Counted from the stretch's first letter, positions 49,048-64,000 are shown. The stretch is DNA of 64,000 nucleotides from Verrucomicrobiota bacterium (GCA_019244415.1 JAFASN010000006.1:34473-98472); one strand, 5' to 3'. The notes: generated by a model not told the origin, from the letters alone. Translations and numbers: made by a program.

Positions 49048-49680
49048 CTACTCCTCCCTTGTGGCTGCAATCAATGGCGCCAAGGTCGCGAAGAACCTCG
49101 TCACGTACCAGAGATAAACAACGAAACCCGCCGCTTGGGCCGCGCAGAGGTAATAATGAGCCCCGCGGTTTAAGAACAAAACAGGCCTTAAGTAGATGGC
49201 GATCAGGCAGGCAAGATTGAACGCGAATAGCGCCGGAATCAGCAGCCTGATGTTTAGCCATTGGTCCGCTGTCGCTGCCCCATACAGGCGTAGCTCCGCA
49301 TCCGTACACGCTTCGCGGGCGCGAGTTCGCAGCAGACGCAAGTCGTACAGGAAAAGTAACCAGACAACCGCGGCATACGCCGTACTCAGGCCGAACCAGG
49401 CCTTCGGGCGGCCGATGCAGGTGAATAACACCGACTCGCCGAGTGTGCAGGCGATGTAGAAGAAGTTGTGCCCGAACTCGAGTGGCCACGCGATTAGCGT
49501 CAGCGTGTGGATGATCGAGCGCGACCAAAAGATAAAGATCACGCAGAGTCCGGCCGCCACGTACGCCGTGCTGCGAAGGTCGCGTAACGCAACCACATTC
49601 CGGGCATTATCGATCAGAAAGTAGAGCGCGACACCCTGGATAATGCTGGCGAGCGTGAGCTCGATGTTGAGTACTGTTGT
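49048..49680 (-). CDS. Hypothetical membrane protein; approximate start, ORF track fuses it to upstream monooxygenase remnant
   Basis: Residues from VLNIELTLASIIQGVALYFL onward give 5-6 hydrophobic helices; upstream part of ORF is FAD monooxygenase remnant. Confidence 0.5.
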   Translation of the reverse strand, partial: TTVLNIELTLASIIQGVALYFLIDNARNVVALRDLRSTAYVAAGLCVIFIFWSRSIIHTLTLIAWPLEFGHNFFYIACTLGESVLFTCIGRPKAWFGLSTAYAAVVWLLFLYDLRLLRTRAREACTDAELRLYGAATADQWLNIRLLIPALFAFNLACLIAIYLRPVLFLNRGAHYYLCAAQAAGFVVYLWYVTRFFATLAPLIAATREE

Positions 49681-49849
49681 GTCGAGTTCCCGGCGGGCAG
49701 AAGAACGGCGCACCAGCGCAAACTTAGCCAGGCTCTGCCGCCGGTTCAACGACCGGGAACAAATCGGCACAATCTCCAGCCGAACGGACTCCCTGCTCGT
49801 CAGTGGGTCGTTCGCAGCAGCGAATCCGATGCAGAAGATGCCGTAGCGG

Positions 49850-50779
49850 AAAACCGTGGGTGCAAACTCGTGACGATGTGGAGGAGGCTTGATGCTCCAC
49901 ATGATGCCAGGTGTTGGTTGGTGAGCCGCATCTCCTAACAGAAAGATTCGCCCGCGCCGGAATGAATCTGCCACGCGATGATGCACACGATAAGTCGAGA
50001 ACCAATTGACCTTCGTCACAGCTATCTTTAAATGCTCGACCGCCTGGTCCTTCACGTCGTCAAACGTCGGCTGACGGTCCTTCTCCTCCTCGATTGGACC
50101 AACGAGTCGAATGCGTCCTTTTTTCTTTTAATGGGAAGACCAACGCGAAGTCCGCACCTTCCAGGTCGGCATGCAGTTGATCATCCGTCGCGGGGCCCCT
50201 CGCTTCTACATCGGCGACATAAAACCGGCCGCTGTAGGTCCCTCTTGGGAAACCGATTCCCGATATTTCACGCACGCTTGACGAAGCACCATCGCAGCCA
50301 AAGAGGAAAGGTGTTGCCACAATCTCTTGCGATCCGTTAGGCAGCTTGAGCCTCGCTTCGACTCCTTTTTCATCCGAACGAAAATCCAGCAACTCTGTTT
50401 GCCGCTCTACGCGCACACCTAGCTCGACCAAATGCTTGATTAACAACCTCTCATGCGCGTCCTGCGGGAACACCAGGACAAACGAAAACGGACTCAAGCC
50501 TTGTCCTATATCCTCCAGCGAGACGCGGGCGGCGATCCTGCCCCGCACCCACAAGTTGAGATTGCTTATCTTTACCCCACCCGCGACCACCTCCTGGTCG
50601 ATACCCAACTGTCGATAGAACTCCAGCGTCCGGGCTTGCACCGCTAAGGCCCGCGAAGTCGTCCCAGCCTCCACTGTCTTATCAATGAGGCGGACCGCCA
50701 CGCCGCATCGTGTCAACCAGAGGGCCAAGACAAGCCCGGTCGGTCCTGCACCGACGATGAGAACAGGTGTTTCGCTCAT
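49850..50779 (-). pseudogene. FAD-dependent (PheA/TfdB-type) monooxygenase, frameshifted and truncated
   Basis: N-terminus VLIVGAGPTGLVLALWLTRCGVAVRLIDK in one frame; continuation KVNWFSTYRVHHRVADSFRRGRIFLLGDAAHQPTPG in another frame; lost homology after PTPG. Confidence 0.7.
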
Positions 50780-50813: not shown

Positions 50814-50936
50814 ATCTAACGAGACACAAGATCAGCTACCGCGCCCAACAGCGCGCATGGCTGCAGGTTGAAGGTTGTAGCTACTCTAAGGGGGGGAGCA
50901 GAGCGGGGCGCCATTAGCTGCATCGCGGGGTTAGAC
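50814..50936 (-). repeat. attC site 1 (type B); left end of array
   Basis: ATCTAAC...GTTAGAC; GATCAGCTACCGC / GTTGTAGCTAC, ATTAGCTGCATCGC arms. Confidence 0.85.
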
Positions 50937-51659
50937 CTTCTCGGCGAAAGAGGCCCTGGTTTCCGCTACTTGCTCCCGCAAAACAAGCCATGCAATCAAG
51001 CCCGATCCAATGTCGATCAAGGCGTGTAGTAAAATCGCCGGCCAGAGCGAGTTCGAAATCGCGAAGACCAACGTCATGACAGCGCCCAGAATCGCAGTCC
51101 GCACGATGCCGCTCACGCCTTGGTAGGAATGTCCAAGGGCGAATACAATCATCGCGATCGCTGCAGCTCCCCACCAGCTCGCCCATGGCTGGAGCGCCCA
51201 GATAAGGTAGCCGCGGAAGATGAACTCTTCACAGAACCCAGCCGTTAGCGATAAGGCAAAGAACCAGTACAATTCAGTGCGCGTGTGGGGAAGGATAACG
51301 ACCAGCTTGGCGAATGTCTCACGCAGCTTTTCGCGGGCGCGAGGCTTGCGCGCGACTTGGTAGGCGCCCCGACCTTGAATCCCCACAAAGGCAATGTTCA
51401 GGCCAATCGCCACGCAAAATCCCCAGCCGGGCGAGAAAGCGAATCCCAGCGCGCGCCAGGCGCGACCGTTTGCGATCCAGAGCACCGCTCCGCCCGCGAC
51501 TAACGCCCACATCAACGTCATCCAGATCAACCAATAGCGGAGCCGTGCGGGACCTGGATCGATACCGACCCACCGAAGGAAGATGCGCCACAGAACAAAT
51601 TGATCGAAAAGAAGTGCGAAGGCGACTAATCCTAAATACAGGATATCAGGTGTTGTCAT
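50931..51659 (-). CDS. Cassette gene: CPBP family intramembrane metalloprotease
   Basis: Start MTTPDILYLG; GFCEEFIFRGYLIWALQPW, ALGHSYQGVSGIV, HALIDIGSGLIAW; stop TAA lies in attC 1 core box. Confidence 0.88.
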   Translation of the reverse strand: MTTPDILYLGLVAFALLFDQFVLWRIFLRWVGIDPGPARLRYWLIWMTLMWALVAGGAVLWIANGRAWRALGFAFSPGWGFCVAIGLNIAFVGIQGRGAYQVARKPRAREKLRETFAKLVVILPHTRTELYWFFALSLTAGFCEEFIFRGYLIWALQPWASWWGAAAIAMIVFALGHSYQGVSGIVRTAILGAVMTLVFAISNSLWPAILLHALIDIGSGLIAWLVLREQVAETRASFAEKV

Positions 51660-51664
51660 AGCTG

Positions 51665-51787
51665 GCCTAACAAGACAAAGCTCAGCCGCGACTACCCGAG
51701 ACGGCTCGCCGCTCACTGAGTATTTTAATCACGAATCGTCACAATTAACAAACCGGGCAGCCGTCGGCTGCAGCACCTGGGTAAGCC
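51665..51787 (-). repeat. attC site 2 (degenerate core GTAAGCC)
   Basis: GCCTAAC...CTGGGTAAGCC with GCAGCCGTCGGCTGCAGCACC arm. Confidence 0.75.
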
Positions 51788-51880
51788 TTTAGCACTGCAA
51801 GGTGTGAAACTTCCGGATAATAAAAAAGCAGAAAGCTTTCCTTTCATGCAATGTTCTTGAGGCCCCTTTTGTCTGACCTG

Positions 51881-52489
51881 CTAGTAGCGCCGGTGTTCTT
51901 CGGGTTGGAGTTGGGTGAGAAGCTCCCCGGCAGCGGTAGCATAATCGGTAAAGAACTTCGCGACTACATCGAGAGCGTGCGGATAGGCGGCGAAACGTTT
52001 GCGCAGTTGCTTAGTCACCGGATCGTAAAAGAAGGTAATGTCCTGGTCGAGATTTGGCACGATGAGTTCATCGCTTAGTTTTTGAAAGTGGTTGATGTCG
52101 TTTAGCCCGGCACGCGCAACGCTTTCTAGTTTGCGCAGGGTCACGACTGTCTTTACATCCAGTAACTGGTATCCTCCGGATTCTAGTAGGGCAGCGACGT
52201 CGCTAGGGCTATAATCAGTAGTAAACGAGAACGCACCTAAGCGAGGCATCTCGCCAGCATCGAGAGCACGCTTGAATCTCGCTGCCGCGTCGGTCTGCTG
52301 GGCGACTTGGGCTCGGGCGGCCTCGATTGATGCCCGCACATCTTGCTCCAAGGCGCCGATGATCTGATCGCGCCGACGAAGCTCTTCACGATGTTGCTGG
52401 TAATTGTTTAGCCAGAAAGCCGCATACACACCCACAAAGACCAGAACGAGTTCGGCAATCCAGTGACGAAGTGCACGCATAACGGACAA
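51881..52489 (-). CDS. Cassette gene: hypothetical protein with N-terminal TM
   Basis: MRALRHWIAELVLVFVGVYAAFWLNNYQQHREEL; 202 aa. Confidence 0.7.
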   Translation of the reverse strand: MSVMRALRHWIAELVLVFVGVYAAFWLNNYQQHREELRRRDQIIGALEQDVRASIEAARAQVAQQTDAAARFKRALDAGEMPRLGAFSFTTDYSPSDVAALLESGGYQLLDVKTVVTLRKLESVARAGLNDINHFQKLSDELIVPNLDQDITFFYDPVTKQLRKRFAAYPHALDVVAKFFTDYATAAGELLTQLQPEEHRRY

Positions 52490-52495
52490 GGTAAG

Positions 52496-52620
52496 ATCTA
52501 ACGAGACAAAAGCTCAGCTGCGGCTACCGGATAGCGCCCCTTCGCTGCTCGACGTTATTCTAATCACGTATCCCCAAGTTAACAAGCCGGGTAGCCGTCG
52601 CCTGCATCGCCTGGTTAAAC
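52496..52620 (-). repeat. attC site 3
   Basis: ATCTAAC...GTTAAAC. Confidence 0.88.
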
Positions 52621-52624
52621 GTTC

Positions 52625-52969
52625 TCACCTGTCGTGGTGGACATGAAACTGGTGTCCATCAGGATCTCTCACGGTAAACTGCCGCATTCCCCACGGCTTC
52701 ACTGAAAGTGGTTCAACGATCATCGCTCCCGCCATCTGCATCTCTGCAAATGTGCCATCCAGATCCTCCGCATAAATCCAATGACTCTGCGGAGTGATGG
52801 GTAGAGACGATAATCGGAAAAAGATAGCCGCGTCTCCGTTGCGTGATACTGCCGCAATTTCAGGAAGAGCCCAGGCCTTATTAAAACCGAGCTTGTCACA
52901 GTAATAACTTCTAGCTATCTCCAAGTCACTAACCGGTAATTCTCGTACTAAGTGACCTATCTTAGTCAT
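52625..52969 (-). CDS. Cassette gene: VOC (glyoxalase/bleomycin resistance) family protein
   Basis: VRELPVSDLEIARSYYCDKLGFNKAW ... MRQFTVRDPDGHQFHVHHDR. Confidence 0.9.
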   Translation of the reverse strand: MTKIGHLVRELPVSDLEIARSYYCDKLGFNKAWALPEIAAVSRNGDAAIFFRLSSLPITPQSHWIYAEDLDGTFAEMQMAGAMIVEPLSVKPWGMRQFTVRDPDGHQFHVHHDR

Positions 52970-52996
52970 AGTTATACCTTCCGAATAAGTGTGTAC

Positions 52997-53120
52997 GTCT
53001 AACGAGACACAAGCTCAACCGCGGCTGCCGAGACCGAGCTTGCCTGCAAGTGTGACGGTGGAAGTCACGATAAGCAAGGAAACAAACCGGGCAGGTGTTG
53101 GCTGCAGCGCCTGGTTAGAA
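52997..53120 (-). repeat. attC site 4
   Basis: GTCTAAC...GTTAGAA. Confidence 0.88.
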
Positions 53121-53585
53121 CTCTTTCGTGCCATGACGCTCCGCATAATCCTGGAATATACGTCTGACACCGCGCAGAAGAAAGGCAGCAACGATGATAC
53201 TGACGAGCGTGCCTGCCGCGGCATGTGCGATGAACCATGTGAAAAGCTGGAGCACGACAACGATGACAAGCATGGCAACAACGGCGAAACGACTTTGACG
53301 GAAGATGAAGAATGCAAGCACGCCAGAGATAGCTGCGATAATAAGGCTGAACGCAAGAGAAATCGCGGTCAGAAACGGCGTATGCTGAAGATACTGCTGC
53401 GAAGCAAACTCATGGCCGAGAACGCCGCCTGTGCTCGGCCGATGGTAGATGAAGTACTGAATAAGGGCTAGGACGCCCGTGAACAGGCTAATAGCGGCAT
53501 AGACGATTGCCGCATAGCCGGCGTGCTGCACGCTCTTGTCTGAGTAGTCGTAGAGCGACGAACTTTGGTCTTTCGCGTAGTCCAT
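53115..53585 (-). CDS. Cassette gene: 4-TM membrane protein
   Basis: 156 aa; stop TAA inside attC 4 core. Confidence 0.7.
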   Translation of the reverse strand: MDYAKDQSSSLYDYSDKSVQHAGYAAIVYAAISLFTGVLALIQYFIYHRPSTGGVLGHEFASQQYLQHTPFLTAISLAFSLIIAAISGVLAFFIFRQSRFAVVAMLVIVVVLQLFTWFIAHAAAGTLVSIIVAAFLLRGVRRIFQDYAERHGTKEF

Positions 53586-53600
53586 GCGCGGGGCGTTAAG

Positions 53601-53725
53601 GTCTAACGAGACAAAGCTCAGCCGCGGCTACTTTGGAGCGCGGCTTCGCTGCTCAACGCGTATTCTAATCACGTTTGGTCAAGTTAACAAACCGGGTAGC
53701 CGTCGGCTGCAGCGCCTGGTTAGAT
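53601..53725 (-). repeat. attC site 5
   Basis: GTCTAAC...GTTAGAT. Confidence 0.93.
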
Positions 53726-53732
53726 GTTGCGG

Positions 53733-53996
53733 TCACCTGCGGTAAACGTCACGCCGATGTCTGACCCGCTGAATCTCGATGACTCCGCTACCACGCAGTA
53801 GCTCATAGACAACGCGGTAATCGCCGAGCCGAATGCGATAAGTGTGCTCCGACCCGGTAAGCTTCTCCGAGCCGTGTGGCAGCGGCTCGTGTCCGAGCGT
53901 GGCGACGGCGTCGAGAATACGCGTGACCTCCTGCTGGGCGATGCGCCGCAAATCCTTCTTCGTCGACGCGCGCCAGCGGATCTCAAACGATGCCAT
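53733..53996 (-). CDS. Cassette gene: RelE/ParE-family toxin
   Basis: FEIRWRASTKKDLRRIAQQEVTRILDAVATLGHEPLPHGSEKLTGSEHTYRIRLGDYRVVYELL. Confidence 0.9.
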   Translation of the reverse strand: MASFEIRWRASTKKDLRRIAQQEVTRILDAVATLGHEPLPHGSEKLTGSEHTYRIRLGDYRVVYELLRGSGVIEIQRVRHRRDVYRR

Positions 53997-54180
53997 CTCG
54001 CTTGAGCTCCGAAACGAACTGCTCGTGCGGGATGGTCGGCTCGTCGCGACGCTCCGCCGCGACTGCTAAATCGTCCAAATCCTCGAGGAGCTTCTCGTAC
54101 GCGGAAATCGGCAGCAGCACTGCCGTGCGCTCGCCCTGCTCGTCGGTGAGATACTGGACCGAATCGCTCATCGGCAACAC
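53983..54180 (-). CDS. Cassette gene: RelB/Phd-like antitoxin
   Basis: VQYLTDEQGERTAVLLPISAYEKLLEDLDDLA; overlaps toxin start by 14 nt. Confidence 0.88.
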   Translation of the reverse strand: MLPMSDSVQYLTDEQGERTAVLLPISAYEKLLEDLDDLAVAAERRDEPTIPHEQFVSELKRDGIV

Positions 54181-54219
54181 TGTAATCTGAAACGCCGCGC
54201 ATGTCGAGATGCGAGCAAC

Positions 54220-54344
54220 ATCTAACGAGACAAAGCTCAGCCGCGGCTACCTGACAGCGCGACTTCGCTACTCTGAGACTATTCTAATCACGTTTAGGCA
54301 AGTTAACAAACCGGGTAGCCGTCGGCTGCAGCGCCTGGTTAGAT
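54220..54344 (-). repeat. attC site 6
   Basis: ATCTAAC...GTTAGAT. Confidence 0.93.
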
Positions 54345-54740
54345 GACTTGGCGTCGCTCGTCCACAGCGTGCGTGGCAAAAAAGAGCAGGAATGCCGATG
54401 ACGCGATGCAAAATAGAACGATGAGAACGGCTGGGGGACGCGCGATAGCGGGGTCAGTCGTGAAGCCGTATACGAGCCACAGAACGTGGAACGCGACGAC
54501 CAAGGGGGACGTGACCAGCCACAGAGTTCGCGCCCAGCGGCAATGCAGCAAAAGCCCAATGCCAGACGCGGCGACGATAAAGCCAAGTGGCAGTATGATG
54601 GCAAACGAGCCGAGTAAGGGATGTGAGAATGCCGCCGTGCCAATCGAGTGGACCACTATCGCCGCTAGTGCGCCGCAGATGCAGTAGTAAAGCCCGAGCG
54701 CAGTGATGAAGGCTCCAAAGACGATGCGCAGCGTAGTCAT
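54339..54740 (-). CDS. Cassette gene: 4-TM membrane protein filling the whole cassette
   Basis: ATG overlaps GTTAGATG core; stop is the TAA of ATCTAAC core. Confidence 0.7.
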   Translation of the reverse strand: MTTLRIVFGAFITALGLYYCICGALAAIVVHSIGTAAFSHPLLGSFAIILPLGFIVAASGIGLLLHCRWARTLWLVTSPLVVAFHVLWLVYGFTTDPAIARPPAVLIVLFCIASSAFLLFFATHAVDERRQVI

Positions 54741-54863
54741 CTAACGAGACAAAGCTCAGCCGCGGCTACCTGAGAGCGCGGCTTCGCTGCTTTGGAGGCA
54801 TTCTAATCACGAAAGTACCAGGAAACAAACCGGGTAGGCGTCGGCTGCAGCGCATGGTTAGAT
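54739..54863 (-). repeat. attC site 7
   Basis: ATCTAAC...GTTAGAT; GTACC-type loop. Confidence 0.93.
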
Positions 54864-54876
54864 GTAGCGGTCAGCA

Positions 54877-55206
54877 TCACATATTCTTTAACAACGGCTT
54901 TTCTCGGCTGTGGATGAGATCAAGCCGGACCGTGGGCGACTCGCCTATCCGTGAGAATGTAACTTCTGTCACAAAGTCAGAATAGCCATTACTGGCGATA
55001 GCGCTCCAGTGCCATCGACCGTTCTTCAAGGTAGGGTCGGCAGATGACGCATCAAAAGGACTGCAGCCGAATTTCCATTTGCAATGGGCGTTTGCGATCT
55101 CTGCAGCGAACCGGCTCGCTTGGTCGGCGGACAATGCAGGGCGGTCACCCGCATTTGTGGTGCAGGCGAGTGCAACGAACAGAAACGCGGCGAATACTCG
55201 CGGCAT
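54877..55206 (-). CDS. Cassette gene: putative lipoprotein
   Basis: MPRVFAAFLFVALACTTNAGD lipobox-like; start trimmed from attC-derived TTG. Confidence 0.6.
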   Translation of the reverse strand: MPRVFAAFLFVALACTTNAGDRPALSADQASRFAAEIANAHCKWKFGCSPFDASSADPTLKNGRWHWSAIASNGYSDFVTEVTFSRIGESPTVRLDLIHSREKPLLKNM

Positions 55207-55215
55207 CGGAACTAC

Positions 55216-55339
55216 ATCTAACGAGCTCAAGCTCAGCCGCGGCTACCAGAGAGCGCGGCTTCGCTGCTCACTGAGTACACTACTGAGGAATGGCCAAGTA
55301 ACAAGCCGGGTAGCCGTCGGCTGCAGCGCCTGGTTAGGT
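55216..55339 (-). repeat. attC site 8
   Basis: ATCTAAC...GTTAGGT. Confidence 0.93.
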
Positions 55340-55341
55340 CT

Positions 55342-55674
55342 TTAGTACGACACGCCTTTCGCTGTGTACGTAATTGATTCGGTCACTACTCGGCTCTTTC
55401 CAGGCGAGAACCGCCAACTACGAAATGCCGCGCTTGCCGCCCGGTCAAGGACGTTCTGGCCAGTGCTCTTCACGACGTACACCGAGGTGACGGTGCCGCT
55501 CGGTGCAACATGCAACGCGAAAACGCCTGCACCCGTAAGGTGGCGCTGCCTTGCCTCGACTGGGTACTCGGGTCGCGGAACCGAGATGGGAATGTCGTGA
55601 TGCGCGGGCGGCTCAGCAAACGAGAACCACGGAAGAGCTGCGGACAATACGGCAATTAGCGCGACGCGTATCAT
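55342..55674 (-). CDS. Cassette gene: TonB C-terminal-domain protein
   Basis: PRPEYPVEARQRHLTGAGVFALHVAPSGTVTSVYVVKSTGQNVLDRAASAAFRSWRFSPG. Confidence 0.88.
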   Translation of the reverse strand: MIRVALIAVLSAALPWFSFAEPPAHHDIPISVPRPEYPVEARQRHLTGAGVFALHVAPSGTVTSVYVVKSTGQNVLDRAASAAFRSWRFSPGKSRVVTESITYTAKGVSY

Positions 55675-55677
55675 AAG

Positions 55678-55801
55678 ACCTAACGAGACAAAGCTCAGCC
55701 GCGGCTACCTGGGAGCGCGGCTTCGCTCCTCTGAGCGTATTCTAATCAGGAATGGCCAAGTAACAAACCGGGTAGCCGTCGGCTGCAGCGCCTGGTTAGA
55801 T
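55678..55801 (-). repeat. attC site 9
   Basis: ACCTAAC...GTTAGAT. Confidence 0.93.
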
Positions 55802-56024
55802 GCGCGGCGTCGCAAGTTATGGGACGATTGACAAAGAGAGAGACACTGGGGCGAATGGCTCAAGCGGAAAGTGCGCCTCGGCCAAGAGCTCGCGCTGGCG
55901 GGTAGAAGATGTGCGAAAGAGGTAGAACTGATCTTCGAGTGGATCACTCATGACGTGCTGCGTCTCGAAATTGCCCGGCCGATCCGGGTCTCCGCGCTTG
56001 CTTTCACCGGCAGATGCAGAAGTC

Positions 56025-56148
56025 ACCTAACGAGACAAGCTCAGCCGCGGCTACTAGAGAGCGCGACTTCGCTGCTCTAAGTGTATTCTAATCAGGAATG
56101 GCCAAGTTAACAAACCGGGTAGCCGTCGGCTGTAGCGCCTGGTTAGAC
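56025..56148 (-). repeat. attC site 10
   Basis: ACCTAAC...GTTAGAC. Confidence 0.93.
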
Positions 56149-56343
56149 CGCGACTTGTTCGAACGAGACGTGTGGAATGTCTTCGATCCTCTCCTGAGCG
56201 TGCTCAACCGTAATGCCGCAAATCTTGCCTTCGGCGTCAAGGTCGAGAAGCGTGTTCTCGTCCAGATCGCGTGTCTCTGCCACGTTCCCGCTGCGAAACT
56301 CGATGTAAAGCGTGTCAGTGTCTTTGAAGTACTGGATCTTCAC
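56143..56343 (-). CDS. Cassette gene: DUF2283 family protein
   Basis: MKIQYFKDTDTLYIEFRSGNVAETRDLDENTLLDLDAEGKICGITVEHA; stop in attC core. Confidence 0.88.
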   Translation of the reverse strand: MKIQYFKDTDTLYIEFRSGNVAETRDLDENTLLDLDAEGKICGITVEHAQERIEDIPHVSFEQVAV

Positions 56344-56594
56344 GGGTGAAATGATCGATCGAAGAATGCGTTATGCACGGTCTCACCGTCAGGCAGAAGT
56401 ATAACGCGCAAATAGCGCCCGTCCATCTCTGGAATGGCTGCCCAGCGGCGAATGCGGCCGTCCTGCTGAATCTGCTCACGAGCCGGATCAGCTACAACGC
56501 GTTCGATCCATTCGAGGCGGATGAACGCGCGATCCGGCCGCTGCCGGATGTGCTGAAAGTAACGGGTGAACCGCACACCGGGAAAATAGCGCAA
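56340..56594 (-). CDS. Cassette gene: DUF4258-like protein, partner of DUF2283
   Basis: RYFQHIRQRPDRAFIRLEWIERVVADPAREQIQQDGRIRRWAAIPEMDGRYLRVILLPDGETVHNAFFDR; 4-nt overlap. Confidence 0.75.
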   Translation of the reverse strand: MRYFPGVRFTRYFQHIRQRPDRAFIRLEWIERVVADPAREQIQQDGRIRRWAAIPEMDGRYLRVILLPDGETVHNAFFDRSFHP

Positions 56595-56620
56595 GCGTTG
56601 CTAACACGAAAGGCGAAGCG

Positions 56621-56744
56621 GTCTAACGAAACACAAGATTAGCTACCGCGCCCGAGAGCGCGCATGGCTGCAAGTTGAAGGTTATAGCTACTCATAAGCG
56701 GGGGAACAGAACGGGGCGCGGTTAGCTGCATCGCCTGGTTAGAT
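56621..56744 (-). repeat. attC site 11 (type B)
   Basis: GTCTAAC...GTTAGAT, resembles site 1. Confidence 0.88.
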
Positions 56745-56763
56745 GGTTCGCGTGGCTGCACAA

Positions 56764-57081
56764 TCAGCGTGAATGTAGGCCTGCTAAGACTGCTAGCAAA
56801 ATGCCAGAAACCGCAGCAACGCCGATGGAAACAGCGCCCACACGAATGACGCGCCGCTGCCAACGCTGAATCTGCGAAAGCACTGGTGGGAAAGCGCCTC
56901 GATCGCGGAGCTCGCGTAACTCCGCGAAAGCGCCAAATGGATCGAATGACTCGCTGCCGCGATAAACGTCGTATCCAAACTCGATGATGGTGGCGAAGCC
57001 GGCGAGCCAAGCTAAGACAAACGTAGCGAGCGCCAAAGCGAGGACTGTCTTCAGCAGGAACGCTACGACTGCGTCTACCAT
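56764..57081 (-). CDS. Cassette gene: 2-TM membrane protein
   Basis: ATG formed at GTTAGATG core; two hydrophobic helices. Confidence 0.65.
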   Translation of the reverse strand: MVDAVVAFLLKTVLALALATFVLAWLAGFATIIEFGYDVYRGSESFDPFGAFAELRELRDRGAFPPVLSQIQRWQRRVIRVGAVSIGVAAVSGILLAVLAGLHSR

Positions 57082-57204
57082 CTAACGAGCTCAAGCTCAG
57101 CCGCGGCTACCTGAGAGCGCGGCTTCGCTGCTCTGGAACCATTCTAATCACGAAAGTACGAGGAAACAAACCGGGTAGCCGTCGGCTGCAGCGCCTGGTT
57201 AGGT
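57080..57204 (-). repeat. attC site 12
   Basis: ATCTAAC...GTTAGGT. Confidence 0.93.
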
Positions 57205-57675
57205 CTTTGGTGGCCACTCGAACCCATCTGGAATAAACTCTAATGAGGCGTTACGAGGCAAGCCGTAAAGCTCCACGATAATGCTGGTGCCGAGCTGCTC
57301 AATGCCAGCTCCCTCAGCTCTGAGGTAGTGCACATTGTTCATGACGTGCTCTGACATGGGCTGACCAAGCTCTGCCGCGAAGGCAGAAACCTTTTCTCGG
57401 TCAGCGATGTTGGAGGGACTCAGCAGCACCCAGTCTAGGCCAACTGTGCCGTGCTCCACTGAATACTGCAGGTTGATGGGATCTGCTTCCGGTGAAAGCG
57501 GCGATCTGAACATGGACACCGCGAAGGAGTGGTCTTTTGCAGTGGCAAGGCGGGAAAGGATCGCGGGAATGTCGCTGACAGTTACGAAGCGTCGAGGTAC
57601 TACGCGGCTGCGCAGAAACAGCACGACGGCGACAACTGCTGCGATGACGACGGCGGTAACGAGTAGTGCTCTCAA
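57199..57675 (-). CDS. Cassette gene: hypothetical N-terminally anchored protein
   Basis: RALLVTAVVIAAVVAVVLFLRSR; stop in attC 12 core. Confidence 0.65.
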   Translation of the reverse strand: MRALLVTAVVIAAVVAVVLFLRSRVVPRRFVTVSDIPAILSRLATAKDHSFAVSMFRSPLSPEADPINLQYSVEHGTVGLDWVLLSPSNIADREKVSAFAAELGQPMSEHVMNNVHYLRAEGAGIEQLGTSIIVELYGLPRNASLEFIPDGFEWPPKT

Positions 57676-57676
57676 G

Positions 57677-57801
57677 ACCTAACGAGCTCAAGCTCAGCCG
57701 CGGCTACCGGAGAGCGCGGCTTCGCTGCTCTAAACGTATTCTAATCAGGAATGGCCAAGTTAACAGGCCGGGTAGCCGTCGGCTGCAGCGCTTGGTTAGA
57801 C
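57677..57801 (-). repeat. attC site 13
   Basis: ACCTAAC...GTTAGAC. Confidence 0.93.
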
Positions 57802-57804
57802 CTT

Positions 57805-58233
57805 TTATGGCGCCTCACGAGAGAGCTTCCGAACAGCCTCTTTGGTATCGAACATGTCAAACTCGATCAGATACTCGTGCGCCCACAGCCGATCGGAAGC
57901 GCGCGTGGACTTCTCGTACTCGTGGAGAAGCTTGGCTGCTTCGGCTCGTGGGAGCAGGTCAATAAGCGGCACGAAAATGAGGCCCGTCTCGCTCTCAATC
58001 GGCCAAGCGCGTCCTCGAAGAAGGACAGCGTGGATGATGCCGGCACCGGCTCGATCTGCCACTCGCTTAGACTTGCGCCAGAATCGCTCATCGCTGAAGC
58101 AGGCGGTGGCGTAGCAGAGTTGTTGGAGATGCTCGGCTTCGTAACGTGCCATGTCGCGCCCCGGCGGCATAGCAGGTTGTCCCAATGCGGCTGTCGATAT
58201 AAATGCGACGCGCGCAATGATAAGCGGCTTCAA
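57805..58233 (-). CDS. Cassette gene: hypothetical secreted protein
   Basis: Minus-strand ORF filling cassette, 142 aa, TTG start 1 nt from core site. Confidence 0.6.
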   Translation of the reverse strand: MKPLIIARVAFISTAALGQPAMPPGRDMARYEAEHLQQLCYATACFSDERFWRKSKRVADRAGAGIIHAVLLRGRAWPIESETGLIFVPLIDLLPRAEAAKLLHEYEKSTRASDRLWAHEYLIEFDMFDTKEAVRKLSREAP

Positions 58234-58234
58234 G

Positions 58235-58350
58235 GTCTAACGAGCTCAAGCTCAGCCGCGGCTACCTACCTCGCTGCTCACTGCGTTTTGTAATCAGGAA
58301 GAGCCAAGTTAACAAGCCGGGTAGCCGTCGGCTGCAGCGCCTGGTTAGAT
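58235..58350 (-). repeat. attC site 14 (shortened)
   Basis: GTCTAAC...GTTAGAT. Confidence 0.92.
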
Positions 58351-58353
58351 GCT

Positions 58354-58569
58354 TCACCGTGCCTCCACAAAGTCTTGCACTGAAACACCTGCTTGCCGAA
58401 GAGCACCCGCAAGCGTGCCGACCTTAAGCTCACGATGCGCTGGAATAACGCATCCTGCTGCACCACGCCGAAGCACAATGTGACTACCGCGCTGGCGAAC
58501 CACCCTGAAGCCAAGTCGCTCAAGCCGACGCACTGCTTCAGCGCTGGAAACGCACGGGAGCTTAGGCAC
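58354..58569 (-). CDS. hicA: Cassette gene: HicA-family toxin
   Basis: SSAEAVRRLERLGFRVVRQRGSHIVLRRGAAGCVIPAHRELKVGTLAGALRQAGVS. Confidence 0.93.
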   Translation of the reverse strand: MPKLPCVSSAEAVRRLERLGFRVVRQRGSHIVLRRGAAGCVIPAHRELKVGTLAGALRQAGVSVQDFVEAR

Positions 58570-58771
58570 GACCGCCTGCTACCTCGAAGGTCGTGACCAA
58601 CGGCTGACCGGCTGGCTGCAACGGGAACTCCTCGAGATACAGTTCCGTCGCCTCGCGCAGGTTGGCGATGGCTTCCGGCACGCTTTCGCCTTGCGTGGTT
58701 GAACCGGTCTCCGGGTTCAGCGCGACGTAGCCGCCTTCTTCGGCGGGAATGAGTACGGCTGTCAGCAACAT
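58562..58771 (-). CDS. hicB: Cassette gene: HicB-family antitoxin
   Basis: LTAVLIPAEEGGYVALNPETGSTTQGESVPEAIANLREATELYLEEF. Confidence 0.93.
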   Translation of the reverse strand: MLLTAVLIPAEEGGYVALNPETGSTTQGESVPEAIANLREATELYLEEFPLQPAGQPLVTTFEVAGGRA

Positions 58772-58826
58772 CCAGTAATGTCGCTGTTTTCACGCCTCGG
58801 GTCAACAACGCCCTGACGCGCTCAGC

Positions 58827-58950
58827 ATCTAACGAGCTCAAGCTCAGCCGCGGCTACCTGAGAGCGCGATTTCGCTGCTTAGTCCTATTGTAATCACGAA
58901 AGTACCAGGAAACAAGCCGGGTAGCCGTCGGCTGCAGCGCCTGGTTAGGC
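58827..58950 (-). repeat. attC site 15
   Basis: ATCTAAC...GTTAGGC. Confidence 0.93.
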
Positions 58951-59403
58951 CTAATCACTTGCTCTGCTCGACAACTCCTGAACGCCGAGTCCGAGCGGGT
59001 CCTCCTGGCCGGCGACTGGCGCAAAACGGCCGTCGGACTCGTGCACCAGGAACAACAAATACCGCGGATGCTCAGCCGGATCGAAGAAGGCGAAAGCCGG
59101 CGCATCGATCAAAGGAATATTCGGGTCGGACATGCGATAATGGTGCAGAGTGAAATGCGCGCGTCGGCGACCTTTGAGTACGAGCAGCGTGCGAAACTCT
59201 GTAGCGACTCCGACTACCGGCTGACCGAGAATGACGCTCCGCTCCGGGGTATCGCGCGTGCGTACGATCGGCTGCGCAATGATGACAAGCTCTGCCGCAG
59301 CGAACAGCTGCCGATACGACCACGTCTGCATCAAGCGGCCTGACGCGGGATATGTGCATGCCGTCAGTATCGCGACAATCGCAATGATCGAACGACGCTG
59401 CAT
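58951..59403 (-). CDS. Cassette gene: hypothetical secreted protein
   Basis: 150 aa with N-terminal signal-like segment; ATG 2 nt from attC 16 core. Confidence 0.65.
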   Translation of the reverse strand: MQRRSIIAIVAILTACTYPASGRLMQTWSYRQLFAAAELVIIAQPIVRTRDTPERSVILGQPVVGVATEFRTLLVLKGRRRAHFTLHHYRMSDPNIPLIDAPAFAFFDPAEHPRYLLFLVHESDGRFAPVAGQEDPLGLGVQELSSRASD

Positions 59404-59405
59404 AG

Positions 59406-59530
59406 GTCTAACGAGGCAAAGCTCAGCCGCGGCTACCTGAGAGCGTGGCTTCGCTGCTCAGCGAGTACTCTAATCATGTTTGGCCAAGTTAACAAACCGG
59501 GTAGCCGTCGGCTGCAGCGCCTGGTTAGGT
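59406..59530 (-). repeat. attC site 16
   Basis: GTCTAAC...GTTAGGT. Confidence 0.93.
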
Positions 59531-59898
59531 CTTGGGGGCGTGAGTATGAAAATCACATCTGCAGCGAAAACGCCGTTCTCGAGAGCTTCGGCCGGCGGCT
59601 TAAGCCCATTCGCCCGTCGAACGCATTCGAGCGCGAACTTGGCGGCGCGCTTACCTGACGTGTTAGAAACGATCTTTACCTGCTCGACGTTGCCTGTGGC
59701 AGAGACCAAGAACTTAATGTGAGTCGTGCCGGGGTGCGCCCCTTTGCAGCGCGTTTCGACTTGTGCGAACCACGCATGCCCAATACGATTCCACAGCGCC
59801 TTAGCGAAAGCTTTGGTCGCAGGAGTTGCTTGCGGCGTAGTCGCAGTAGCGAGCGTTGCGAAGAAACTCACGAGCACAAATAAGCTTATGCGCTTCAT
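59470..59898 (-). CDS. Cassette gene: TonB-like domain protein with attC-encoded C-terminus
   Basis: THIKFLVSATGNVEQVKIVSNTSGKRAAKFALECVRRANGLKPPAEALENG; ends PNQALQPTATRFVNLAKHD inside attC 16. Confidence 0.7.
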   Translation of the reverse strand: MKRISLFVLVSFFATLATATTPQATPATKAFAKALWNRIGHAWFAQVETRCKGAHPGTTHIKFLVSATGNVEQVKIVSNTSGKRAAKFALECVRRANGLKPPAEALENGVFAADVIFILTPPRPNQALQPTATRFVNLAKHD

Positions 59899-59901
59899 AA
59901 G

Positions 59902-60026
59902 ACCTAACGAGACGAAGCTCAGCCGCGGCTACCTGAGAGCGCGGCTTCGCTGCTCTGAAAGTATTTTAATCACGAAAGTACCAGGAAACAAACCGGGTAA
60001 CCGTCGGCTGCAGCGCCTGGTTAGAC
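59902..60026 (-). repeat. attC site 17
   Basis: ACCTAAC...GTTAGAC. Confidence 0.93.
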
Positions 60027-60524
60027 CTTCGGTAGCTTGTCCCAAAGCTGTCCCAACTCAAAGCGCAGGAGCACGGGATCTTCGGGTGCTTCCAAGCCAT
60101 GCTCAAATGTGTTGCCGATCAGGATGACTGTGTGTGGAGGCTGGAAAAACATGTCTGCGCTGACAAATGGTGTCTTTTCTGGCTCCTCCAGCGCGCGAAG
60201 CTCACGCGCCTTCAGCGAAAAGACGTAAACATGATAATGCCACGGCTGGTGCCCGGCGCCGTTGAGAGCGGTGATAACAAGGAAATTGCTGTCGTGCGTC
60301 CATTCGGCGTTGCATGCGACATCACGGCTTAGCTCATGTTCGAACAACGTGTTGTGCTCGCGATCCTTGATCGCGAGCATTGTGCCTTCGGACTTTGTGT
60401 CGTGGAACGTGGTTTTCGTGAAGATCGCATTGAGTCGGCCGTCGCGAGTGCTTACGGGGTAGTCGAATGGCCGCTCGGCGGCGGCGCTACAAGCGATAAT
60501 CACCACGAGTGCGGCTACGCGCAT
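60021..60524 (-). CDS. Cassette gene: hypothetical secreted protein
   Basis: MRVAALVVIIACSAAAERPF signal; 167 aa; stop in attC core. Confidence 0.7.
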   Translation of the reverse strand: MRVAALVVIIACSAAAERPFDYPVSTRDGRLNAIFTKTTFHDTKSEGTMLAIKDREHNTLFEHELSRDVACNAEWTHDSNFLVITALNGAGHQPWHYHVYVFSLKARELRALEEPEKTPFVSADMFFQPPHTVILIGNTFEHGLEAPEDPVLLRFELGQLWDKLPKV

Positions 60525-60527
60525 GAG

Positions 60528-60650
60528 GTCTAACGAGACACAAGATCAGCTACCGCTGGCGAGAGCGAGCGTCGCAGCGGGTTGCCGTTGCAGTTGCGGC
60601 GGATGTGGAACACACAGCGGCCAGCGGTTAGCTGCATCGCCTGGTTAGGC
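60528..60650 (-). repeat. attC site 18 (type B-like, divergent middle)
   Basis: GTCTAAC...GTTAGGC; GATCAGCTACCGC / GCGGTTAGCTGCATCGCC. Confidence 0.87.
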
Positions 60651-60894
60651 GTTAACGTCGGTTTGCGTAGAGGCGTGGCACGTGAACGCTGCACAATGCG
60701 CATACTAGCTACGGCAAGCTGACCAACACCAGGAAAAAATCACTGAAAGCGTGGCCGCTAATCCTAGGGGCGCCCACATCGAGCTCCCGCGTCGTGCGGC
60801 AGCACTGACGAGTGGCGGCTCGGCAGCAGAATCGGCGCACGAGCAATTTCGTGAAGCAAGGCATCACCAACGTTGCTCGCGAGCGGCTATAAGC

Positions 60895-61019
60895 GCCCAA
60901 CGAGACAAAGCTCAGCCGCGGCTACCTGAGAGCGCGGCTTCGCTGCTCTGAGCGTATTCTAATCACGTTTGGCCAAGTTAACAAACCGGGTAGCCGTCGG
61001 CTGCAGCGCCTGGTTAGGT
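60895..61019 (-). repeat. attC site 19
   Basis: GCCCAAC...GTTAGGT. Confidence 0.92.
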
Positions 61020-61033
61020 CTCATTCGGCTCGG

Positions 61034-61354
61034 CTAGTAGGTAATGATCGTTCTTTCTGCAGTAGCTTCGATCGGTGAATTTTCATCGGTGCGCCAGGTG
61101 CCCCTGCGTCGCATAGCGTAGAACGTGCTGCCTGTTGAGTCGGACTCGCTACAGCAACGCTCGTCCACGTGCACGCGATCACGCCCAATAGCCTCAAGCT
61201 TAATCGTGGTGCGGCCAATATGAGGTGTGCTCGCGGCCAAACGCTTGATCTGGCCTACGTCCTCAGCAGACAAGGCGGTCGCGTAAGGCCCGACCAGCTC
61301 TATGTGAGTACTGCAGGCGCTCAGCAGAAACGCCAAAACGAGCTGCGGTCGCAT
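61034..61354 (-). CDS. Cassette gene: putative lipoprotein
   Basis: MRPQLVLAFLLSACSTHIEL lipobox. Confidence 0.65.
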   Translation of the reverse strand: MRPQLVLAFLLSACSTHIELVGPYATALSAEDVGQIKRLAASTPHIGRTTIKLEAIGRDRVHVDERCCSESDSTGSTFYAMRRRGTWRTDENSPIEATAERTIITY

Positions 61355-61356
61355 AG

Positions 61357-61480
61357 ACCTAACGGCTCAAGCTCAGCCGCGGCTACCTGAGAGCGCGGCT
61401 TCGCTGCTTATTAAGCATTTTAATCACGAAATTACCAGGAAACAAACCGGGTAGCCGTCGGCTGCAGCGCCTGGTTAGGC
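61357..61480 (-). repeat. attC site 20
   Basis: ACCTAAC...GTTAGGC. Confidence 0.93.
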
Positions 61481-61846
61481 CTTTCGCGTGCGAACATACT
61501 CCTCGATCTTCTTCAGTACGAGCTGACGTAACTCAACGGGCAAGTCGAGGGCGCGACGCTGAAACTCGGCGACAACGGTCTCGGCGGGAAATGCACCATC
61601 GGGAATGAGAATGGGCGTCGCATTCCCCCATGCGCTGTGCTCGCCGTCATCGACTTGCATGTGCGAGAAACCCCGGCCCGAACGCCACGTCAAGGCGCGC
61701 TCCCACCGCGGCTTACCATAGCAAAGCTGGAAACCGTGAATCACGCCGCTGGGTAGATGCCACACGATGAGATCGAAGTAGTCGTCGCTCAGCCATGTGC
61801 GGTCGTAATCGCCCGGCACGGCTTTCTTGGGCACGCGCTCTAGCAT
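61475..61846 (-). CDS. Cassette gene: hypothetical protein
   Basis: 123 aa ORF; stop in attC 20 core. Confidence 0.65.
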   Translation of the reverse strand: MLERVPKKAVPGDYDRTWLSDDYFDLIVWHLPSGVIHGFQLCYGKPRWERALTWRSGRGFSHMQVDDGEHSAWGNATPILIPDGAFPAETVVAEFQRRALDLPVELRQLVLKKIEEYVRTRKA

Positions 61847-61856
61847 GCTGGTGAAG

Positions 61857-61981
61857 GCCTAACGAACTCAAGCTCAGCCGCGGCTACCTGGGAGCGCGGC
61901 TTCGCTGCTCTTGAAGCATTTTAATCACGAAAGTACCAGGAAACAAACCGGGTAGCCGTCGGCTGGAGCGCTTCGTTAGGT
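61857..61981 (-). repeat. attC site 21
   Basis: GCCTAAC...GTTAGGT. Confidence 0.93.
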
Positions 61982-62343
61982 GCCGGCGCTCCCAAAGTAC
62001 GACCGGCGTCCCACCTCCTGCTTCTTCGGTCTCCTCGGCGCGTTCGCGGCGGAACTTCTGCAGCGGTGGGCGTACGCTGGCCACGAACGTCTCCTGCGCG
62101 TGAACTGGTGATTGAGAGTCAATACTCACGGCGCGTTCTCTCCCAATGGGCACGCTTTCGCCGCGGAACGCTCACGAACTAGAGGGAATGTCAACCGCGC
62201 TTTGCTGGCGCGTCGCGCGTACTCTGCGCGTCCTCTCACCTGAGAAGGCGTGACTGCTCAAAAGTACAGCCTAAGTACGAGAGGGCATAGCCTCACCACG
62301 TAGTACCACGAAGCGCTTCGCTTGAGCGGCAGATGCAGAAGTC
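61982..62343 (-). other. Cassette of the repeated poorly-coding family, copy 1
   Basis: Extended similarity to 63627-63989; only a weak 89-aa ORF not conserved in copy 2. Confidence 0.6.
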
Positions 62344-62468
62344 ATCTAACGAGACAAAGCTCAGCCGCGGCTACCCGAGAGCGCGACTTCGCTGCGCTGG
62401 AAGCATTCTAATCACGAAAGTACAAGGAAACAAACCGGGTAGCCGTCGGCTGCAGCGCCTGGTTAGAT
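62344..62468 (-). repeat. attC site 22
   Basis: ATCTAAC...GTTAGAT. Confidence 0.93.
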
Positions 62469-62505
62469 GGTGAACGTTGCTGCACGCAAGGCGGCGCACA
62501 ATGGA

Positions 62506-62763
62506 TTACATCGGTGCGATGGCGAACGAAATAGCAAGAACGACAACAGCGATGCCAAAGACGAGGTACAACCAAGCTACAAGGTAGTAGCGGGCGCGAA
62601 GGAGACGTGCCGCAGCTGCTGCCAAAAGTGCTCCGAATATGCTGAGAATGATCCACGTGCGTTGTGAGCCGACAGTCACGATGCCGATGAGTGCTGCGTA
62701 TGGGCCAAGTAGTGTAAGAAGATCGGCGGGAAAGTGACCCGATTTTGTTGTCCTCTCGCTCAC
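62506..62763 (-). CDS. Cassette gene: small membrane protein
   Basis: 85 aa with about 3 hydrophobic segments. Confidence 0.65.
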   Translation of the reverse strand: MSERTTKSGHFPADLLTLLGPYAALIGIVTVGSQRTWIILSIFGALLAAAAARLLRARYYLVAWLYLVFGIAVVVLAISFAIAPM

Positions 62764-62772
62764 GGCACAACC

Positions 62773-62896
62773 ATCTAACGAGACAAAGCTCAGCCGTGGC
62801 GAGAGGGAGCGCGGCCTCGCTGCTCTTGAACCATGTTAATCAGGAGTGGCCAAGTTAACAAACCGTCTCGCCATCGGCTGCAGCGCTTGGTTAGGT
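62773..62896 (-). repeat. attC site 23
   Basis: ATCTAAC...GTTAGGT; divergent L arms. Confidence 0.9.
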
Positions 62897-62967
62897 GCTC
62901 GTGTGCCATTCCCTTGTCGTGCGGCGCTACGCTTGCGCAAAGCGCGTCGGCTGCGGCCATTCCTGCT

Positions 62968-63141
62968 TCATAGTTCAGTTGAAACGTTGCCGGTCGTGTC
63001 TGCTCCTGCAAAGCTCGGTTGAGTGAGCGGTGTCGCATGTGGCAGTCGAATGCGTGTTAGTGCTCGAAGCGTGTCATGCGGCAGCGTCACAATGGCCATT
63101 CCTGCAATGGCGACGAGTAGCATAGTATGCGAGCGCTTCAT
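62968..63141 (-). CDS. Cassette gene: small secreted or membrane peptide
   Basis: MKRSHTMLLVAIAGMAIVTLP; 57 aa. Confidence 0.45.
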   Translation of the reverse strand: MKRSHTMLLVAIAGMAIVTLPHDTLRALTRIRLPHATPLTQPSFAGADTTGNVSTEL

Positions 63142-63144
63142 GTC

Positions 63145-63269
63145 ACCTAACGAGCTCAAGCTCACTCGCGGCGAGCGGGAGCGAGGGAACTAAAACAGTA
63201 TGAAGAAACAAACTACCAAAGCGGTGGGAAACAAACCGGCTCGCCGTCGAGTGCAGCGCCTGGTTAGGT
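63145..63269 (-). repeat. attC site 24 (divergent; carries plus-strand ATG at 63200)
   Basis: ACCTAAC...GTTAGGT. Confidence 0.9.
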
Positions 63270-63751
63270 CTTTGCGCCCGCACGAAGAAGAAGTGCTGAA
63301 CTACCTGCAATGGTTTGCCGAGAACCGTCCGCAGAAGTGGGTTCGACCGATGGATGTCGGCGGCTCCGATGGGTCTCACCATAGCGGCACGCTGGCAAAG
63401 CTGGTCAAGCTTGGATATGCCGAATCCCGTCGGCGCTGTGCGTCGATAGTCGGTGCGCTCGGCTCGAATCGGGCTGGAAAAGAGTATCGCGCGCTCAATA
63501 GACCTAACGAGCTCAAGCTCAGCCGCGGCTACCTGAGAGCGCGACTTCGCTGGTGTGAGAGTACTTTAATCACGAAAGTACGAGGAAACAAACCGGGTAG
63601 CCGTCGGCTGCAGCGCCTGGTTAGGTGTAAGGGTGGCGAAGGAACGAGCGGCTTTCGCCGTGTACTTGCTTCTTCTGTCTGCCTGAGGACATGGCGTGCG
63701 GGACTTCTGCATCGGTGGGCGAACGCTGGCAACGAACGTCTCTGCGCGTGA
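63200..63751 (+). CDS. Inverted cassette gene: small winged-helix-like protein; real C-terminus uncertain (ORF reads through next attC)
   Basis: HEEEVLNYLQWFAENRPQKWVRPMDVGGSDGSHHSGTLAKLVKLGYAESRRR...GKEYRAL. Confidence 0.55.
   Translation: MKKQTTKAVGNKPARRRVQRLVRSLRPHEEEVLNYLQWFAENRPQKWVRPMDVGGSDGSHHSGTLAKLVKLGYAESRRRCASIVGALGSNRAGKEYRALNRPNELKLSRGYLRARLRWCESTLITKVRGNKPGSRRLQRLVRCKGGEGTSGFRRVLASSVCLRTWRAGLLHRWANAGNERLCA
63502..63626 (-). repeat. attC site 25
   Basis: ACCTAAC...GTTAGGT. Confidence 0.93.
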
Positions 63752-63989
63752 ACTGGTGATTGCGTCAGTACTCAGGGCGGTTCTCTCTCGATGGCCACGC
63801 TTTCGCTGGGCAACGCTTACGAGCCAGAGGCCATGTCAAGGACGCTTTGCTGGCGTCTGGAGCGTACTCTGCGCGTCCTCTCTGCGGAGCCAAGGCGTGA
63901 CTGCTCAAAGTACGACCTAAGTACGAGGCGGTGTAGCCTCATCACGTAAAACGAGGAACCGCTTGCTTTCACCGGCAGATGCAGAAGTC
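63627..63989 (-). other. Cassette of the repeated poorly-coding family, copy 2
   Basis: Similar over most of its length to 61982-62343; reading frame disrupted relative to copy 1. Confidence 0.6.
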
Positions 63990-64000
63990 ACCTAACGAGA
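63990..64000 (-). repeat. attC site 26, truncated by window end
   Basis: ACCTAACGAGA identical to starts of other sites. Confidence 0.8.

Follow-up and report, generated by a model that had tools for sequence, protein, structure and literature searches.

A 64,000-nt stretch of a Verrucomicrobiota genome (GCA_019244415.1; positions 34473–98472 of contig C118, hereafter the window) ends in a long series of repeats that resemble attC, the recombination sites of integron cassettes, and raises the question of whether these are true attC sites and, if so, where their integrase lies. The original prediction, made from the sequence of the window, had described a large chromosomal array of integron cassettes, read on the minus strand and lacking an integrase within the window. 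Our analysis supports, at a probability of roughly 85%, a genuine integron cassette array that forms the part of a sedentary chromosomal integron distal to the integrase and is separated from that integrase by an assembly break.

Anatomy of the attC sites

The array occupies the right 13.2 kb of the window and comprises 25 complete attC sites of 116–125 nt each (50,814–63,626), together with a 26th that is cut at 63,990–64,000 after its first 11 nt. The cassettes between the sites measure 223–728 nt, with a median of 376. A covariance model trained on these sites recovers exactly the same 25 on the plus strand, with scores of 88–145 bits, and yields nothing below E = 0.1 in the rest of the 64 kb, save for a weak reverse-strand echo of a listed site. 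As the model derives from the window's own sites, its independent test lies in the matches beside the integrase genes (intI) on contigs C76 and C78 and in relatives, which are described below. An Rfam search gave no attC match.

RYYYAAC and GTTRRRY core boxes are positioned at the ends of nearly all 25 sites; the R′ box at 51787 is degenerate. Left of the array, the 50.8 kb contain only six such box pairs at attC spacing, none of them with the stem. Within the array, by contrast with the other strand (0 of 25), 21 of the 25 box pairs enclose at least 11 of 12 stem pairs and carry the extra base on the 3′ arm.

The sites share a 17-bp stem, GCT-CAGCCG-CGGCTACC / GGTAGCCG-T-CGGCTG-C-AGC, with two extrahelical bases per site, both located on the arm that adjoins the 3′ ends of the genes. 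Specifically, the inner extrahelical base is T in 25 of 25 sites, while the outer base, likewise present in every site, is C in 23; six pairs separate the two, and the outer base always lies 8 nt from the core GTT. This base asymmetry identifies the plus strand as the recombining (bottom) strand; the cassettes are therefore read on the minus strand. Furthermore, 95.7% of the alignment cells are paired, and both partners have changed in 13 of 24 pairs (11 of 17 within the L stem), a level of covariation that none of 500 shuffles reaches; when the partner is slid by 1–3 columns, the pairing collapses.

Mean column identity across the attC alignment is 81%, and two stem types can be distinguished. 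The first comprises 22 sites, with a mean identity of 79%, while the sites at 50814, 56621 and 60528 differ from it in stem and loop, with 59% identity to the first type, and retain the same core boxes and geometry. In single-sequence folds of the plus strands, most of the sites tested are clearly more stable than shuffles, the second-type sites at 50814 and 56621 folding no better than shuffles.

The number and extent of the sites, the complementary L arms and the minus-strand reading of the array are thus borne out by the covariance model, the stem covariation and the extra-base comparison between strands. The original prediction was correct as to the extra T; it overlooked the other extrahelical base, in most sites a C, which lies 7 nt further out, and made no mention of the second stem type at 50814, 56621 and 60528.

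Comparison with the class 1 aadA attC, whose sequence matched 2,514 plasmid records, shows the same inner T, the same six base pairs between the extrahelical bases and the same 8-nt distance of the outer base from the core GTT. Unlike the aadA site, the window sites have a longer loop (125 against ~60 nt) and C instead of G as the outer base, and they differ in stem sequence. Judged on sequence, all defining attC features that could be tested are present in the window sites.

Integrases, probable attI and the contig end

The right edge of the window (98,472) is the last base of C118, and the contig ends inside the array. No intI is found anywhere on C118, whose readable part ends at position 64,000 of the window, in agreement with the predicted lack of an integrase. 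The assembly as a whole (3.15 Mb, 134 contigs) contains two loci above the integron-integrase cut-off (TIGR02249), one intact, on C78, and one frameshifted, on C76. The C78 integrase is 350 aa long (TIGR02249 457 bits, 4.2e-137) and aligns to the VchIntIA structure 2a3v (6e-82) through the insertion specific to IntI. In the C76 integrase (L010, 9515–10481), the frame changes between the first 44 and the remaining residues, which may mean that the gene is a true pseudogene or that the assembly is wrong here; over its main frame it shares 67% identity with the C78 integrase. An integrase tree places the integrases of this family and other Verrucomicrobiota in one group (support 97/88), with both of the genome's own integrases in the same inner clade.

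Both integrases have a conserved stretch upstream that abuts the first cassette and ends in CTCGTTAGAY. This stretch is very probably attI, because the same core is found at the same place in the intI loci of nine relatives. The layout on C76 and C78 is canonical, with intI divergent from the cassettes; in one relative (L210, G067:C24, 9942–17396) the integrase is transcribed toward the attC array, an inverted layout. The window-built model detects additional attC sites next to both integrase genes, 10 on C76 and 3 on C78, of which the last is truncated; on either contig the sites reach the end. The features of a complete integron, an IntI with its insertion and a putative attI, are accordingly to be seen in this genome, on contigs other than C118.

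The same loci bear on a different account of the repeats, in which dispersed hairpin elements of another kind, REP/RAYT-like or borne by insertion sequences, merely resemble attC. The sites are indeed palindromic, and single copies lie elsewhere in the genome as well as in relatives. However, such elements sit poorly with the core boxes, an extrahelical geometry identical to that of class 1 attC, the regular cassette spacing and the single orientation, and the sites stand in tandem beside IntI and attI both in this genome and at 8 of the 14 intI loci from relatives. The intI/attI association together with the extrahelical geometry leads us to reject the repeat-element explanation, which we consider extremely improbable.

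The presence of two integrases adjoining the same attC type favours the main inference of the original prediction, an intI and attI to the right of the window. C76 and C78 each break within the array on the integrase side, and C118 on the far side; physical continuity of the C118 array with one of the two integrases would complete the integron. Cassettes without an open reading frame (ORF) that are shared between C118 and C76, at 80–84% identity, give a weak hint that C76 may carry the integrase that serves the window array.

Several observations weigh against a single integron interrupted by the assembly. Among the contig joins tested, at selected ends, no end overlap of C118 with C76 or C78 was found, the longest shared word being 24 nt. 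The flank markers are not syntenic, and none recurs in the relatives' intI loci, so that the contigs cannot be joined by comparison. In addition, attC clusters without an adjacent integrase are present in the same genome on C100 (L123, 9304–13171; at least six sites, internal to the contig) and C16 (L124, 6814–7400; two sites), and an integrase-free array is therefore possible. A further attC lies on C50 (L125, 5848–5964). None of C100, C16 and C50 carries an integrase over the TIGR02249 cut-off, and their attC, of the same or a more diverged type, appear to be single insertions or small clusters of attC sites lacking an integrase in cis (CALINs).

The window array could itself be a true CALIN, large in size, the alternative named in the original prediction, and be served in trans by the IntI of C76 or C78 or left behind after loss of intI. 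The lack of intI on C118 and the clusters on C100 and C16 fit such an origin, as do relatives with many small dispersed clusters, such as G022, with 24 sites and no intI over the cut-off. Unlike a CALIN element, however, C118 ends inside the array, and breaks exactly where intI would follow. Moreover, C76 and C78 represent intI-proximal halves that are also broken inside arrays, and a run of at least 25 sites exceeds any cluster in the six near-complete relatives examined. On balance, we regard a CALIN as unlikely.

For the preferred chromosomal integron, a mechanism can be proposed by homology. An IntI of this genome would bind the folded bottom strand (the window plus strand) of each attC, would insert cassettes at the conserved attI ending in CTCGTTAGAY, and would excise or reshuffle cassettes, a process that may still be under way. 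Older cassettes would shift away from attI, so that the window would hold the distal, presumably mostly unexpressed, end of the array.

Distal border and cassettes

To the left of the array lie ORFs that, named from their translations, we take to be chromosomal genes, among them ORFs resembling arginine decarboxylase, asparaginyl-tRNA synthetase and 2-oxoglutarate dehydrogenase. The array thus combines a chromosomal position with many similar attC sites, as is characteristic of a sedentary chromosomal integron. At the distal boundary, an FAD-monooxygenase-like gene (49048–50779) is split, with its N-terminal half at 50060–50779 and its FAD motif RIFLLGDAAHQ continuing in another frame from 50055; being split across frames, the gene looks like a decaying pseudogene. 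The sites and cassettes of the array are listed in Table 1.

Table 1. Sites and cassettes of the window array, in window coordinates (CM, covariance model)
Feature	Coordinates	Strand	Evidence
attC, second stem type, distal array end	50814..50936	+	CM 87.9 bits
Cassette: CPBP/Rce1-like intramembrane protease, last of array	50937..51664	-	PF02517 E=6.9e-20
attC, degenerate R′ box GTAAGCC	51665..51787	+	CM 102.6 bits
Cassette: 202-aa protein, no family match	51788..52495	-	
attC	52496..52620	+	CM 110.4 bits
Cassette: VOC/glyoxalase-superfamily protein	52621..52996	-	PF00903 E=9.4e-14
attC	52997..53120	+	CM 95.6 bits
Cassette: 156-aa membrane-like protein, no family match	53121..53600	-	
attC	53601..53725	+	CM 139.4 bits; fold z=-3.5
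Cassette: type II toxin-antitoxin, ParE/RelE-like toxin and RelB-like antitoxin	53726..54219	-	PF05016 E=2.4e-12, PF18506 E=1.4e-7
attC	54220..54344	+	CM 143.4 bits
Cassette: 133-aa membrane-like protein, no family match	54345..54738	-	
attC	54739..54863	+	CM 139.4 bits
Cassette: 117-aa protein, no family match	54864..55215	-	
attC	55216..55339	+	CM 131.5 bits
Cassette: TonB C-terminal domain protein	55340..55677	-	PF03544 E=3.9e-15
attC	55678..55801	+	CM 135.8 bits
Cassette: 69-aa short ORF, no family match	55802..56024	-	
attC	56025..56148	+	CM 131.8 bits
Cassette: DUF2283 protein and 84-aa partner ORF	56149..56620	-	PF10049 E=2.4e-18
attC, second stem type	56621..56744	+	CM 108.8 bits
Cassette: 105-aa protein, no family match	56745..57079	-	
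attC	57080..57204	+	CM 144.8 bits
Cassette: 158-aa protein, stop codon from R″ box	57205..57676	-	
attC	57677..57801	+	CM 136.3 bits
Cassette: 142-aa protein, no family match	57802..58234	-	
attC, shorter loop	58235..58350	+	CM 118.5 bits
Cassette: HicA toxin (58354-58569) and 69-aa HicB-like upstream gene (58562-58771)	58351..58826	-	PF07927 E=8.8e-15 (HicA)
attC	58827..58950	+	CM 133 bits
Cassette: 150-aa protein, no family match	58951..59405	-	
attC	59406..59530	+	CM 140.3 bits
Cassette: TonB_C-like protein, frame enters attC, stop 59470	59531..59901	-	PF03544 E=1.7e-4, just below cut-off
attC	59902..60026	+	CM 138 bits
Cassette: 167-aa protein, no family match	60027..60527	-	
attC, second stem type	60528..60650	+	CM 97.7 bits
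Cassette without convincing ORF	60651..60894	-	
attC	60895..61019	+	CM 141.5 bits
Cassette: 106-aa protein, no family match	61020..61356	-	
attC	61357..61480	+	CM 136.8 bits
Cassette: 123-aa protein, no family match	61481..61856	-	
attC	61857..61981	+	CM 135.4 bits; fold z=-4.3
Cassette without conserved ORF, same family as 63627-63989 and a C76 cassette	61982..62343	-	
attC	62344..62468	+	CM 145.4 bits
Cassette: 85-aa membrane-like protein	62469..62772	-	
attC, L arm fully compensated	62773..62896	+	CM 128.6 bits; fold z=-4.4
Cassette: short ORF only	62897..63144	-	
attC	63145..63269	+	CM 106.9 bits
Cassette, best frame on opposite strand: 77 aa from ~63266, TTG start	63270..63501	+	
attC	63502..63626	+	CM 142.4 bits
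Cassette without conserved ORF	63627..63989	-	
26th attC, first 11 nt, cut by contig end	63990..64000	+	

Toxin-antitoxin cassettes are known to stabilise large integrons; the array encodes a ParE/RelE-RelB-like pair and a HicA toxin, whose HicB-like partner matches only DUF7387, below the cut-off. TonB_C proteins are also encoded twice, one match lying just below the cut-off. The products of the remaining cassettes gave no family match, and a defence-model search (PADLOC) with ten of the unassigned products was likewise negative.

By coordinate reading, the R″ box (TAAC) provides the stop codon for about seven genes. The ORF of the second TonB_C cassette continues through the attC at 59470–59530, such that its tail, NQALQPTATRFV, is encoded by the recombination site, and attC-encoded tails like NQALQPTATRFV are found in other ORFs of the array as well. 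A single cassette has its frame (63266–63496, 77 aa) on the plus strand, opposite to the rest of the array.

The ORF-less cassettes shared by C118 and C76 form a family of five members, two in the window (61982–62343 and 63627–63989) and three at the C76 locus (L010; 11379–11729, 14275–14583 and 14709–15021). They share no open frame, their indels are not in threes, and they start with GACTTCTNCATCTNCC or nearly so. Apart from a 27-nt match in one genome, the family was not found in 60 other genomes of the host family.

Integrons and attC sites in the host family

The host is a soil bacterium that falls in the family of Candidatus Udaeobacter (Verrucomicrobiota). The closest named intI loci are those of Verrucomicrobia bacterium AV106, which gives the same matches as G002 (same genus), and of Ca. 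Udaeobacter AEW3, which has the same integrase, residue for residue, as G079 (same family). The attC model matches 36 of 37 sampled family genomes, the present one included, with fewer matches in other families of the order and almost none in the scanned intI loci of other phyla, while intI above the cut-off is found in 30 of 61 family genomes. Five near-complete family genomes (G022, G015, G033, G027 and G020) carry 12–29 sites in 6–17 clusters of 1–5 sites, with 13 clusters in G022; neither G022 nor G033 has an intI that passes the cut-off. Among 14 relatives' loci (L198–L211), the contig ends at most 5 kb from intI in 12, indicating that short-read assemblies tend to lose such arrays, at contig ends.

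The array is a new example of a known system, the chromosomal integron. It is reminiscent of the VCR array of Vibrio cholerae in its attC sites, which are long (~125 nt), highly similar and uniformly oriented, in its mostly unknown small cassettes and its toxin-antitoxin cassettes, and in an IntI that matches the solved VchIntIA structure. Unlike the V. cholerae superintegron, it belongs to another phylum, its size is cut by the assembly, and the genome holds dispersed clusters and several smaller arrays. PMC11023631 deals with the maintenance of cassettes in large integrons. Verrucomicrobiota already figure among integron-bearing phyla in PMC8618304. Taxon-specific attC types are known from PMC8352920, whose 11 models leave out Verrucomicrobiota. 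The literature searched yielded no paper on integrons in the Udaeobacter family.

The most interesting point is the near-universal presence and dispersed clustering of attC in this family. We tentatively suggest, as a possibility somewhat short of even odds, that integrons are a near-universal trait of the lineage with a family-specific attC, and that one or a few IntI seed many small dispersed clusters around the chromosome in trans; if so, the window array would belong, as a large member, to a cassette network spanning the genome and would not be a single superintegron. The soil pool of integron gene cassettes is very large and poorly assigned. Here, one attC type, with its integrase and probable attI, is tied to a family of common soil Verrucomicrobiota, and soil-metagenome cassettes of this type could therefore be assigned to that host group.

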